A stretch of 64,000 bases of DNA from Rubrivivax sp. (GTDB lineage Bacteria > Pseudomonadota > Gammaproteobacteria > Burkholderiales > Burkholderiaceae_C): NCBI GenBank assembly GCA_024641945.1, contig JAHECD010000004.1, positions 1-64,000 of the forward strand. Direction: 5' to 3'. Numbering within the stretch: the stretch's first letter is position 1; each line of letters begins with the position of its first letter. The position numbers and the translations under genes were made by a program. Positions 4,545 to 43,146 of this stretch are shown piece by piece. Below the pieces are notes generated by a model, which did no database searches, had not been told where the DNA came from, and saw nothing but the letters and a program-made list of their open reading frames with translations.

Positions 4545-5756
4545 TTGAGTCAATCCACACCTGTGGCCGTAGCGCCTGATGGGGGTGCTGCCCGTGCTGT
4601 GCTGGTCGGCGTGGACTTCGGTCCTGGCAGTTCCTTCGACCCGACACTCGAGGAATTGGCGCTTCTGGCGACCTCCGCAGGGGACGATCCCGTCGCACGA
4701 GTCACTGCGCGACGAAAGGCGCCCGATGCGGCACTTTTCATCGGGTCGGGCAAGGCAGACGAAATCAAGGCGCTGGTGGCGGGCACGTCGGCACAAGGCG
4801 TGATTTTCGATCAAGCGCTCAGCCCGGTGCAGCAGCGAAACCTCGAGCGCCATCTGGGCGTGCCGGTAGCTGACCGAACGGCCGTGATCCTCGACATCTT
4901 CGCTGCGCGTGCCCAGAGCCATGAAGGCAAACTGCAGGTCGAACTGGCTCAGTTGCAGTACCTTTCGACGCGCCTGGTGCGTCGGTGGTCGCACCTCGAA
5001 CGTCAACGTGGCGGCATTGGCACCCGGGGGGGGCCCGGCGAGACGCAGATCGAACTCGACCGGCGCATGATCGGAGAACGTATCAAGTCGGTAAAGGTGC
5101 GCCTCGAAAAGGTCAAGCGTCAACGCGGGACACAAAGGCGGGCGCGCGAACGGCGTGGCACCTTCCGCATTTCGCTCGTTGGATATACCAATGCGGGCAA
5201 GTCGACGCTGTTCAATGCGCTGGTCAAGGCGCGTGCCTATGCTGCGGATCAGCTGTTTGCAACGCTGGACACCACGACGCGGGCCTTGTGGCTGCAGCAG
5301 GCCCAGGCCTCGGTGTCGTTGTCCGACACGGTCGGGTTCATTCGCGACTTGCCGCACAAGTTGGTCGAGGCGTTCCAGGCCACGCTTTCCGAAGCAGCCG
5401 ACGCGGACCTCCTGCTTCACGTGATCGACGCATCCAGCCCGCAATTGGCGGAACAACAGGCCGAGGTATCGCGTGTCCTGGTTGAAATCGGTGCCGATCA
5501 TGTTCCACAGGTGCTTGTCTACAACAAGGTCGATCTCCTTGAAGCAACACAACAACCCCGCATGTTGTCGGACCAGATCGAAGTGAGCTCGGGAGTCCGA
5601 TACCCGCGGGTTTTCGTCAGTGCCATTGGTGGCCTGGGCCTCGACGCCCTGAGGGCTGTCATTGCAGACGCCGTCTTGGCCGATGGTGGCGGATCAGACG
5701 TCGCCGCGGCAGGGCCGGCCAGGGCCACAGTTCCATTCCTTTCAGAAGACGCATGA
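4545..5756 (+). CDS. hflX: Ribosome-rescuing GTPase HflX
   Basis: A GTPase that splits stalled ribosomes, notably after heat stress. It has the HflX N-terminal domain with the glycine-rich linker RGGIGTRGGPGETQ, a coiled-coil helix, then the G domain with GYTNAGKST, DTVGFIRDLP and NKVD. The start is uncertain: TTG 4545 gives 403 residues, in-frame GTG 4563 gives 397, and neither has a clear Shine-Dalgarno; no upstream ATG exists between hfq and this frame. The stop overlaps the hflK start (ATGA). The hfq-hflX-hflK-hflC order is conserved across proteobacteria. Confidence 0.95.
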   Translation: MSQSTPVAVAPDGGAARAVLVGVDFGPGSSFDPTLEELALLATSAGDDPVARVTARRKAPDAALFIGSGKADEIKALVAGTSAQGVIFDQALSPVQQRNLERHLGVPVADRTAVILDIFAARAQSHEGKLQVELAQLQYLSTRLVRRWSHLERQRGGIGTRGGPGETQIELDRRMIGERIKSVKVRLEKVKRQRGTQRRARERRGTFRISLVGYTNAGKSTLFNALVKARAYAADQLFATLDTTTRALWLQQAQASVSLSDTVGFIRDLPHKLVEAFQATLSEAADADLLLHVIDASSPQLAEQQAEVSRVLVEIGADHVPQVLVYNKVDLLEATQQPRMLSDQIEVSSGVRYPRVFVSAIGGLGLDALRAVIADAVLADGGGSDVAAAGPARATVPFLSEDA

Positions 5757-7057
5757 ACATGCACGCAACGCCCGAGTCCCTTGGTGGCCGCCTGCGCCTC
5801 CTGGGCCAGTCCACGCTCCTGCTGCTCGCAGGGCTGACCGGCCGGCGCGGCAACGTGATCCAAAACAGCGGCCGCAACGACGGCCCGCCCGATCTGGATG
5901 AGCTTTGGCGGGATTTCAACCGCAAGCTCAACGGCCTGTTCGGTGGCAAGGGCGGCGGCAAACGCGGCGGAGACGATCGCCCTCCGGGTGGGCCGCAATT
6001 TCAGCCGAACATGAAGAGCGCGGGCGTCGGCATCGGGCTGATCATCGCCGTTGCGGTGATCGTCTGGCTCGGCAGCGGCTTCTTCATCGTCCAAGAAGGC
6101 CAGCAGGCAGTAGTGACGTCGTTTGGCAAGTACAGCCACACGTCGGATGCCGGTTTCAAGTGGCGGTTCCCGTATCCCTTCCAGGCACACGAGACGGTGC
6201 CGGTGACTCAATTGCGCTCGGTCGATGTGGGCCGGAGCACGGTCTCGCAGGCCACGGGCCTTCGCGATTCATCGATGTTGACGCAGGACGAGAACATCGT
6301 CGACATCCGCTTCACCGTTCAGTACCGGTTGAAGGACGCGCGCGCCTACCTGTTCGAGAACAATCGCCCTGACGAGGCAGTTCTTCAAGCGGCCGAATCC
6401 GCCGTTCGGGAAATCGTCGGGCGCAGCAAGGTCGACTCCGTGCTCTACGAACAGCGCGACGCGCTTGCGGCCGACCTCGTGAAGTCGATCCAGTCGCAGC
6501 TCGACAGACTTCGCGCCGGGATCGTCGTGGCCAACGTGAACGTACAGAACGTGCAAGTGCCCGAGCAGGTGCAAGCCGCTTTCAACGATGCCGTGAAGGC
6601 CGGTGCCGACCGGGACCGCTTCAAGAACGAAGGCCAGGCGTACGCCAGCGACGTGGTGCCGAAGGCACGTGGCACGTCCGCGCGCCTGAAGGAAGAGGCC
6701 GAAGGCTACCGATCTCGCGTGGTTGCGCAGGCCGAAGGCGATGCGCAGAGATTCAATCAGGTATTGGCGGAGTACCAGAAGGCACCGAATGTCACCCGCG
6801 ATCGCCTCTATATCGAGACGATGCAGCAGGTCTACTCGAACGTGAGCAAGGTTCTGATCGACGCCCGCAGTGGTTCGAACCTTCTGTACCTGCCGCTGGA
6901 CAAGCTGCTGCAGCAAGCTGGCGCTGTCGGCACTGGAGTCTCGGCGACGCCCGGTCCGAGCCCCGTGCCTGCAGATACGCCGCCCGCCACGACGTCGACC
7001 GCGGGCGATGTGCGCTCGCGTGACAACTCCCGGTCGCGCGACCGTGAAGGCCGTTGA
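5753..7057 (+). CDS. hflK: FtsH modulator HflK
   Basis: A 434-residue inner-membrane SPFH/band 7 protein that with HflC forms a periplasmic cage around the FtsH protease and tunes its activity. The glycine-rich cytoplasmic N-terminus contains DGPPDLDELWRDFNRKL, a membrane helix lies at about residues 92-112, then the band 7 domain starts with VQEGQQAVVTSFGKY, and a Pro/Thr/Arg-rich tail closes it. ATG 5753 overlaps the hflX stop. The first 35 residues include a hydrophobic stretch (STLLLLAGLTG) before the glycine-rich region. The second ATG at 5759 cannot be excluded. Confidence 0.95.
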   Translation: MNMHATPESLGGRLRLLGQSTLLLLAGLTGRRGNVIQNSGRNDGPPDLDELWRDFNRKLNGLFGGKGGGKRGGDDRPPGGPQFQPNMKSAGVGIGLIIAVAVIVWLGSGFFIVQEGQQAVVTSFGKYSHTSDAGFKWRFPYPFQAHETVPVTQLRSVDVGRSTVSQATGLRDSSMLTQDENIVDIRFTVQYRLKDARAYLFENNRPDEAVLQAAESAVREIVGRSKVDSVLYEQRDALAADLVKSIQSQLDRLRAGIVVANVNVQNVQVPEQVQAAFNDAVKAGADRDRFKNEGQAYASDVVPKARGTSARLKEEAEGYRSRVVAQAEGDAQRFNQVLAEYQKAPNVTRDRLYIETMQQVYSNVSKVLIDARSGSNLLYLPLDKLLQQAGAVGTGVSATPGPSPVPADTPPATTSTAGDVRSRDNSRSRDREGR

Positions 7058-41976: not shown

Positions 41977-42006
41977 CTTGCAGGCATTGGCAAGACTGTA
42001 TATATT
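41977..42006 (+). promoter_or_regulatory. Predicted sigma-70 promoter of the radical SAM gene
   Basis: TTGCAG (41977-41982) and TATATT (42001-42006) are 18 bases apart. The -10 matches five of six consensus bases, the -35 three of six. Transcription would start at about 42013, i.e. at the A of the start codon, giving a leaderless mRNA; no Shine-Dalgarno is visible. Confidence 0.6.
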
Positions 42007-42011
42007 TACAG
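41996..42011 (+). promoter_or_regulatory. LexA (SOS) box
   Basis: CTGTATATATTTACAG is a full match to the LexA operator CTGT-N8-ACAG with an all A/T centre, as in strong E. coli boxes. It covers the predicted -10 and ends one base before the start codon at 42013, an ideal place for repression. Confidence 0.85.
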
Positions 42012-42012
42012 T

Positions 42013-43146
42013 ATGTCAGCCAAGCACATGCCGCCCGACCTGCCTGCGCAGCCCATCGCGTTGGTCAGGATGCCTGCGAAGGGCAGGGGGACCGCCTGGG
42101 AAATCCGGCACCGATTTGCCACCGATACGCGCAGCGACTTCAACGATGGCTGGGGCACCCTCGATCAGGCCGCGGTCGAAGTACCGTCCAGCCCGGAAAC
42201 GACCGTCATCGAAGAGTCGGTGCGCACCATACTTTCGGGCAATGACTCGCCGGACATTGCTTTTGACCTTTCCATCAATCCGTACAGAGGGTGCGAGCAC
42301 GGATGCATCTACTGCTTCGCGCGCCCCACGCACAGCTACCTGAACCTCTCGCCCGGGCTCGACTTCGAGACCCGGATCATTGCCAAGCGCAATGCTGCCG
42401 AGTTGCTGCGCAAGGCATTTGCAAGCCGATCCTACGAGCCATTGCCCTTGAATCTCGGGTCCGCGACGGATGCCTATCAGCCGGTGGAGCGGCGTCTGCG
42501 CATCACGCGGGCCGTCGTGGAGGTACTGGCCGAGCACCGCCATGCGTTTTCGGTCATCACCAAGTCTGCGCTCATCGAGCGCGATCTGGATCTGCTCGTC
42601 CCAATGGCTGCGGAGCGTCTCGCCGCGGCCTACGTTTCGATCACGACGCTAGACCCGGTTCTGGCACGCGCCATGGAGCCGCGGGCGGCTGCCCCACACC
42701 GTCGGCTTCGAACCATTGAGACCTTGGCCAAGGCTGGGGTGCCGGTGGGCGTGAGCGTGTCGCCGGTGATCCCGTTCCTGAACGAACCCGAAATCGAACG
42801 CATCCTTGCTGCTGCTGCCAGTGCCGGCGCGACGTCGGCATTCAGCATCGTGTTGCGGCTGCCGTGGGAGGTCAACCCACTGTTTCAGCAATGGCTGCAG
42901 CAGCATGTACCGGAGAAGGCAGAGCGCATCATGGCTCGAGTGCGTGAAATGCGCGCGGGCCGCGACAACGACGCGACCTTCGGTCGCCGTATGACAGGTG
43001 TCGGCGTCTGGGCGGACCTCCTGCGCCAGCGCTTCGAAAAGACGGCCGCCAGGCTGGGCCTCAACCGCGCCCGGGTCGACCTCGACCTGTCTCGGTTCAG
43101 GCGGCCGAATGCCAGTGAACATTCCGCACAAGGCAACCTGTTCTGA
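42013..43146 (+). CDS. PA0069-family radical SAM protein
   Basis: A 377-residue radical SAM protein. The [4Fe-4S] ligands are Cys94, Cys98 and Cys101 in NPYRGCEHGCIYCFARPTH; the TIM-barrel strands follow, with GSATDAYQPVERRLRITR and VSVSPVIPFLNEPEIERI characteristic of the PA0069/Rv2578c group, which is distantly related to spore photoproduct lyase. The reaction is unknown. It begins at ATG 42013 directly behind a LexA box, so it is predicted to be induced by DNA damage; a repair or nucleotide-lesion role is therefore plausible but unproven. Gene order (after dnaB) gives no further hint; the downstream gene is convergent. Confidence 0.92.
   Translation: MSAKHMPPDLPAQPIALVRMPAKGRGTAWEIRHRFATDTRSDFNDGWGTLDQAAVEVPSSPETTVIEESVRTILSGNDSPDIAFDLSINPYRGCEHGCIYCFARPTHSYLNLSPGLDFETRIIAKRNAAELLRKAFASRSYEPLPLNLGSATDAYQPVERRLRITRAVVEVLAEHRHAFSVITKSALIERDLDLLVPMAAERLAAAYVSITTLDPVLARAMEPRAAAPHRRLRTIETLAKAGVPVGVSVSPVIPFLNEPEIERILAAAASAGATSAFSIVLRLPWEVNPLFQQWLQQHVPEKAERIMARVREMRAGRDNDATFGRRMTGVGVWADLLRQRFEKTAARLGLNRARVDLDLSRFRRPNASEHSAQGNLF

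Follow-up and report, generated by a model that had tools for sequence, protein, structure and literature searches.

Genes annotated as splB, or simply as encoding radical SAM proteins, have been placed under LexA control in several bacterial lineages. A 2012 report predicted that splB is under SOS control in alpha- and betaproteobacteria and, in its available text, proposed a role as a true spore photoproduct lyase (SPL) for these groups (PMC3323433). A radical SAM protein appears in the LexA regulon of Streptomyces venezuelae with RNA-seq and ChIP-seq values (PMC9380542), radical SAM/splB genes count among the SOS genes given for Gram-positives, Balneolaeota, and Bacteroidetes (PMC7739468, PMC8565304), and SplB-like photolyases have been linked to the SOS response (PMC3765255), each in the portions of these papers that were available. 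SPL itself needs Cys141 as a hydrogen donor (PMC3742179, PMC5368176), with the enzyme of Clostridium acetobutylicum keeping its cysteine elsewhere (PMC5368176). In the accessible part of a 2026 study, a Streptomyces Rv2578c-family protein had an rmsd of more than 4 A to Bacillus subtilis SplB, and caution with the name was advised (PMC12924846). The phrase "PA0069 family" and the combination of Rv2578c with LexA each returned no match in the literature searched, and where two papers mention PA0069 the text around it deals with matters other than LexA.

We examined a 64-kb stretch of DNA from Rubrivivax sp. (the window) in which an open reading frame at 42013-43146 (+ strand; start ATG 42013-42015) encodes, with its stop codon, a protein of 377 aa. 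The product belongs to the radical SAM superfamily (Pfam PF04055, 54.1 bits, cut-off 29.5; CxxxCxxC motif present) and, within it, to the PA0069 family, whose NCBIfam profile NF033668 matches residues 23-370 at 454.4 bits (cut-off 360). A sequence-only reading of the same DNA had named a joint PA0069/Rv2578c group; its first half is borne out, while for the second the Rv2578c profile NF038135 gives 218.3 bits (residues 52-305), below the cut-off of 430, and identity to three actinobacterial proteins that do pass this cut-off is 39.8-40.1%. The family core opens with KGRG (residues 23-26; 42079..42090, +), where the profile begins, and R25 and G26 are conserved in at least 90% of 55 aligned sequences. 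The [4Fe-4S] cluster motif CEHGCIYC (42292..42315, +) places its cysteines at residues 94, 98, and 101, exactly as had been proposed, and all three are invariant in 55/55 aligned members. The "splB" gene of the SOS regulons in print for alpha- and betaproteobacteria is probably a PA0069-family gene; the window protein passes the cut-off of that family, and its gene has the putative LexA control predicted for splB in the available text of PMC3323433.

The nearest named relatives by protein are Burkholderiales of the Aquincola/Rubrivivax/Roseateles group, with up to 74% identity (among the best 80 of 575 loci). Upstream of the gene lies an ORF that we read as a putative replicative helicase gene, dnaB; the next long ORF on the 3' side is on the opposite strand, so the radical SAM gene is probably transcribed alone. 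No constant partner gene was found among the neighbours of the named loci (best 80 of 575), the largest cluster of ORFs (at least 90 aa, spurious ones included) reaching 15/80. PADLOC gave no match for the protein, and the four phage records with partial matches included none covering 80%. As observations on relatives, two PA0069-family genes (L283:1201-3287 of G368, and L282 of G320) occupy open frames of 722 and 703 codons, respectively, and in each the two profile matches stand about 1 kb apart close to the cluster motif; the former also has weak Pfam intein-splicing and LAGLIDADG matches, and NCBIfam names a family of Rv2578c relatives that carry inteins. In another genome (G027, contig 55, 3308-4330) the family gene lies in four fragments with stops and is apparently a decayed copy.

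Directly before the start codon stands a perfect LexA box, CTGTATATATTTACAG (41996..42011, +; extended form GACTGT...ACAGTA), recognized from its sequence and from conservation in relatives. As the sequence-only reading had stated, it covers the -10 element and ends one base before the ATG at 42013, with a T at 42012 between them. Within the window alone, one CTGTN8ACAG box is not significant (0.58 expected), but across the 5.02-Mb host genome (G000) such boxes are scarce, numbering 11 compared to 24 for the reversed control pattern, and 20-base palindromes with at most two mismatches number 9 compared to 46 for the control. Sites in the host genome were located by pattern search, and the window box is one of only three palindromes there with at most one mismatch. 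Of the other two, one precedes imuA (169.9 bits vs. a cut-off of 150) and one an integron integrase gene (452.2 bits vs. a cut-off of 265); moreover, the sole lexA gene over the family cut-off and recA each have two one-mismatch boxes upstream. Given these boxes at imuA, the integron integrase, lexA, and recA, the host LexA very probably uses this motif.

Some further sites in the host genome deserve mention in their own right. The integron integrase box (L045:4174-4189, contig 157), TACTGTTTTTTCATACAGTA, is directly upstream of its gene and is the genome's only mismatch-free 20-base LexA palindrome. Both lexA boxes carry CTGG on one side. A perfect CTGTN8ACAG at L046:4555-4570 (contig 198) lies about 190 nt upstream of ORF 4757-6178, whose C-terminal part weakly matches TIR-domain defence proteins; this ORF is possibly SOS-linked, the distance being large. 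Another, at L044:2081-2096 (contig 116), is 24 nt before a 97-codon ORF (2121-2411) that has no Pfam or NCBIfam match.

Conservation upstream of family genes was followed in two even draws of genomes. From the class, 102 of 274 genomes match the family, 89 over cut-off, and upstream DNA was read for 86, leaving out the window's own locus and two with matches at a contig edge (G051 and G062); the order draw gave 100/250 genomes over the cut-off, of which 99 were read, leaving out a partial match at a contig edge (G330). The sets share one locus (L104) and some species, and two loci (L162 and L191) have identical upstream sequence. A perfect box is present at 9/86 class loci, always 243-278 nt before the cluster cysteine, and at none of the gene controls of that draw (68.8 kb). 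Order loci have a perfect box in 34/99 cases and a one-mismatch match in 11/99, three of these judged to be chance. We also used a site profile trained on 49 sites of named loci, with a threshold passed by 1% of gene controls, such that about one chance pass is expected per locus set. Applied to loci other than those named, it accepts a LexA-like site at 54/99 order loci and 13/86 class loci; a search for LexA boxes upstream of PA0069-family genes, as the earlier reading had suggested, thus does find them. The profile accepts no site at 45/99 order loci, many of them in genomes having lexA, and at 73/86 class loci. We read the box of the window as a putative LexA operator that overlies the promoter and is kept at orthologous loci, though not at every one.

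The named loci, which are the best 80 of 575 confirmed, have a perfect box in 49/80 cases, and in 44 of the 55 placed in Burkholderiales. By profile, a count that is partly circular because the profile was trained on named-locus sites, a site is present in these best 80 of 575 at 53/55 Burkholderiales, 3/3 unplaced Betaproteobacteria, 1/1 Pseudomonadales, 1/1 loci from a MAG labelled Myxococcales, and 2/4 unplaced loci. By the same profile none is present in Lysobacterales (0/6), unplaced Gammaproteobacteria (0/3), Nitrosomonadales (0/2), Chromatiales (0/1), or Alphaproteobacteria (0/4). The closest relative among the matches listed (L107) is accepted by the profile but retains no more than the box's first half, and a Pseudomonas relative (L183) has a perfect box. 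Of the 99 order genomes, 80 were compared for lexA: a gene passing the cut-off of that family is found in 21/23 boxed genomes (match with at most one mismatch) vs. 36/57 boxless genomes (p 0.014), where the boxless set includes three genomes whose one-mismatch match was judged to be chance (G308, G432, and G515) and some with profile-accepted sites. At six order loci (L190, L197, L200, L204, L210, and L216) the usual upstream place is occupied by CTGG-N8-CCAG, which suggests a variant LexA half-site.

Beyond the class, the motif GTTCN7GTTC, which we take to be the alphaproteobacterial LexA motif and which differs from CTGTN8ACAG, occurs upstream in 9/10 named alphaproteobacterial loci (the miss being Methylobacterium bullatum) and in 3/3 unnamed loci of the same phylum. 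These 13 loci (62 kb) hold 15 matches, 14 of them at the upstream position. Among the Rv2578c-family actinobacterial loci, a one-mismatch CGAACN4GTTCG is present in Nonomuraea and Streptomyces and absent from Tsukamurella (2/3); these sites weigh little because a non-actinobacterial locus of the same class (L320), which has no alphaproteobacterial or CTGT site, also has two such matches. The scan for alphaproteobacterial and actinobacterial motifs took in 4/9 low-scoring loci, and 9 of 49 plasmid records were taken in. Other LexA motifs are absent or at background in the class loci (alphaproteobacterial, 0 and 1 matches in the two orientations; Xanthomonas, 1; actinobacterial, 0), and the Lysobacterales loci have a Xanthomonas-type match with at most one mismatch in 0/6 cases. 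SOS control of the radical SAM gene, as the sequence-only reading had claimed, is therefore strongly supported by comparison across order, class, named, and alphaproteobacterial loci, but it is not new, having been in print since 2012. Regulation by LexA is very probably genuine, and its outline was known before; the term "uncharacterised", which had been applied to this enzyme, holds for its reaction only, because SOS control of splB had been published as a prediction, as the available text of PMC3323433 shows.

The arrangement of the promoter bears on how the gene may be expressed. A -35-like hexamer, TTGCAG (41978..41983, +), and a -10-like hexamer, TATATT (42001..42006, +), the latter inside the LexA box and with its last base 7 nt ahead of the start codon's A, are both present as had been noted, with a spacing of 17 bases rather than the 18 given before. 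No Shine-Dalgarno sequence is seen by eye ahead of the ATG at 42013, in agreement with the same reading. Across 124 family sites, 37 end 1-2 nt before an in-frame ATG (30 at 1 nt and 7 at 2 nt), and an ATG at this distance is in frame in 37 cases and out of frame in 1. There is no other start codon before the conserved core in 21 of these 37 box-adjacent genes, and in 23/37 the distance from the -10-like hexamer to the A of the start codon is likewise 7 nt, when the hexamer is taken as the best match lying 6-12 nt away. In the 36 distinct genes with a box 1-2 nt before the ATG, there are 22 instances of TTGN/CTGG between -38 and -34 (21 between -36 and -34) vs. 0.66 per position elsewhere.

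From the in-frame excess and the spacing of the -10 and -35 elements, we infer that the radical SAM gene probably has a leaderless mRNA, as had been predicted, a layout that these features support well. The box could instead be a LexA operator at a promoter whose transcript starts upstream, with the adjacent ATG either not being the start or being served by an ordinary leader. Such an arrangement would fit the many relatives whose first ATG follows the box after 7-40 nt, as well as the other possible starts of the window gene before the core (ATG at codon 6, TTG at codon 17, and ATG at codon 20), but it would leave unaccounted for the 37-to-1 frame bias, the 21 genes with no alternative start, and promoter elements spaced for initiation at the ATG, and we regard it as unlikely. 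The leaderless layout itself appears to be evolutionarily labile: in a rapidly built protein tree (173 rows) it changes at least 12 times among the 111 genes with a site, and so has been gained or lost repeatedly. For comparison, 2/19 boxed lexA genes (31 lexA loci read) have the box within 2 nt of the start; the difference from 37/124 family sites is not significant (p 0.10), and the layout may therefore be a habit of LexA promoters in the order rather than specific to this gene.

An AlphaFold2 model of the window protein (55 homologues; mean pLDDT 89.1, pTM 0.87) has the overall fold of SPL (TIGR04070, PF20903; PDB 4FHC and others). SPL entries take ranks 1-6 of the fold search (E 4e-8 to 3e-7, TM 0.53-0.61, rmsd 4.7-5.2, 16-17% identity), SkfB follows (E 1.4e-6), and the list includes enzymes acting on a nucleotide (viperin), tRNA (MiaB), and peptide (SkfB). 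Sequence places the protein outside the SPL family, the NCBIfam SPL model giving 17.7 bits (E 0.0014) vs. a cut-off of 400. Profile comparison alone with SPL aligned only residues 180-294, a PDB search with the single window protein returned 0 matches, and a PDB profile search returned 9, among them NifB and, as the best, SkfB (2.3e-4), and no SPL. The distant relation to SPL that had been proposed thus stands for the nearest solved fold and only weakly for the sequence.

The residues of the active site bear more directly on chemistry. Alignment with three SPL-like proteins, which score 254-282 bits and are themselves below the SPL cut-off, sets Ser150 of the window protein (42460..42462, +) in the place of the SPL hydrogen-donor cysteine (C141 in B. 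subtilis). Cysteine occupies this position in 0/262 members (1/263 loci left out, the motif not being matched), which have Ala, Thr, Ser, Val, Ile, Met, Gly, or Tyr instead. The position alone is not decisive, because the C. acetobutylicum SPL uses a cysteine elsewhere, but the 55 aligned members have no fourth invariant cysteine at all outside the cluster, the best column reaching 30/55. A cysteine at window position 143, considered as a shifted SPL cysteine, was rejected as essential, being present in 125/262 members and replaced by Pro in the window.

These features also bear on whether the window protein is a true SPL (splB), reversing the thymine dimer 5-thyminyl-5,6-dihydrothymine after UV. 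In favour of that identity are the SPL entries as best solved folds, the shared CxxxCxxC site, the weak sequence matches, and the places of the two SPL tyrosines, where Y100 is invariant (55/55) and residue 102 is Y/F in 258/260; the gene is also named splB, in the setting of SOS-controlled photoreactivation, in the available text of PMC3323433. Against it, the SPL model score is far below cut-off, identity to SPL is low, the hydrogen-donor cysteine is missing with no invariant substitute, and the dimer is described, in the part of the source at hand, as the photoproduct of endospores (PMC3742179). We consider a true SPL very unlikely. The splB label is doubtful because the hydrogen-donor cysteine is missing in 262/262 members, and with it the photolyase label of the family.

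A feature that the sequence-only reading had missed is found at the other end of the protein. The C-terminal tail, QGNLF (residues 373-377; 43129..43143, +), resembles a sliding-clamp-binding peptide. UmuC, Pol II, and MutS are among the proteins that have such motifs, and we recognized the tail by QL[SD]LF, which we take to be the consensus of the bacterial sliding-clamp-binding motif. The pattern Q-x-x-[LIMV]-[FLWY] is present in the last 15 residues of 243/262 members (1/263 loci left out for a stop or for length), at the very end in 217, and Q-x-x-L-F in 226/262; the remaining sequence of these proteins would lead one to expect about 1 match, and neighbouring ORFs have the tail pattern in 8/1440 cases. 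The commonest forms are QLDLF (36) and QLSLF (19), with the window's QGNLF in 5 members, and the 19 misses include several close variants (e.g. QLSLI or QMQLDF). The tail accompanies genes with a LexA-like site (107/111) and those without (63/66) alike, in counts over order and named loci (named being the best 80 of 575) that allow a looser six-residue form. It is also present in 9/10 named alphaproteobacterial proteins, the miss being from Hyphomonas (L177), and in 3/3 Rv2578c-family proteins, where LL is the ending in two. SPL-like proteins, in contrast, have it in 0/8 cases.

Residues 371-377 of the model have a mean pLDDT of 53, as expected of a free tail, and a Q-L-S/D-L-F-type peptide in a flexible tail is what we would expect of a sliding-clamp client, although the window's form is not the commonest. 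The tail probably docks the radical SAM enzyme on the sliding clamp (DnaN). The SOS proteins UmuC, ImuB, and Pol II, which we take to bind the clamp, share with it a short Q-L-x-L-F peptide and LexA control, but they are polymerases or their partners, whereas the window protein is a radical SAM enzyme whose clamp binding is predicted only. The clamp-like tail is a new lead, and the most useful one on function. It also sets our description apart from that of the printed splB: the available text of PMC3323433 describes neither the leaderless layout nor the tail, the word "leaderless" has 0 occurrences there, and the word "clamp" has 0 occurrences in it and in the available text of PMC3765255.

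We hypothesize that this gene encodes an SOS-induced radical SAM DNA repair enzyme, translated from a leaderless mRNA, docked on the sliding clamp, and working without the SPL cysteine relay, a reading to which we give an even chance. LexA would sit on the -10 element and block RNA polymerase until DNA damage led to RecA-driven LexA cleavage, freeing the promoter. Transcription would then probably begin at the A of the ATG, giving an mRNA without a leader, and the product would be a radical SAM enzyme of SPL-like fold whose flexible C-terminal tail, carrying a clamp-binding-like peptide, probably tethers it to DnaN where forks have stalled or gaps are left. There, the 5'-deoxyadenosyl radical would act on a damaged DNA base by a route that does without the cysteine relay. 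Action on a nucleic-acid lesion, as the sequence-only reading had proposed, is plausible and is helped by the tail; that the substrate is DNA, and the outcome repair rather than another modification, we infer from the regulation, the tail, and the fold together.

The same SOS-induced enzyme might act on a free nucleotide, tRNA, or a protein, with the tail being structural or an unrelated peptide. The presence of viperin, MiaB, and SkfB in the fold list and of SkfB and NifB in the profile search would suit such substrates, as would the lack of a constant DNA-repair neighbour (best 80 of 575 named loci). Two different LexA motif types, in beta/gamma- and in alphaproteobacteria, point instead to DNA, as do a clamp-like tail in 243/262 members and SPL as the best fold, and we find a substrate other than DNA rather unlikely. 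More broadly, and more tentatively than for the single gene, the PA0069 and Rv2578c enzymes might form a separate class of SOS DNA repair enzymes in several phyla that the clamp brings to damaged replication forks, where they would repair a base lesion through radical chemistry that needs neither the SPL cysteine relay nor light; this is possible, if somewhat short of likely.

For more than a decade this type of gene has been listed, on distant homology, as an SOS-controlled photolyase (available text of PMC3323433), and the data presented here argue against SPL chemistry. The five-residue tail offers a concrete and cheap handle on the enzyme's expected place of action in the cell. Should it bind DnaN, the lesion could be sought within clamp-dependent repair alone.
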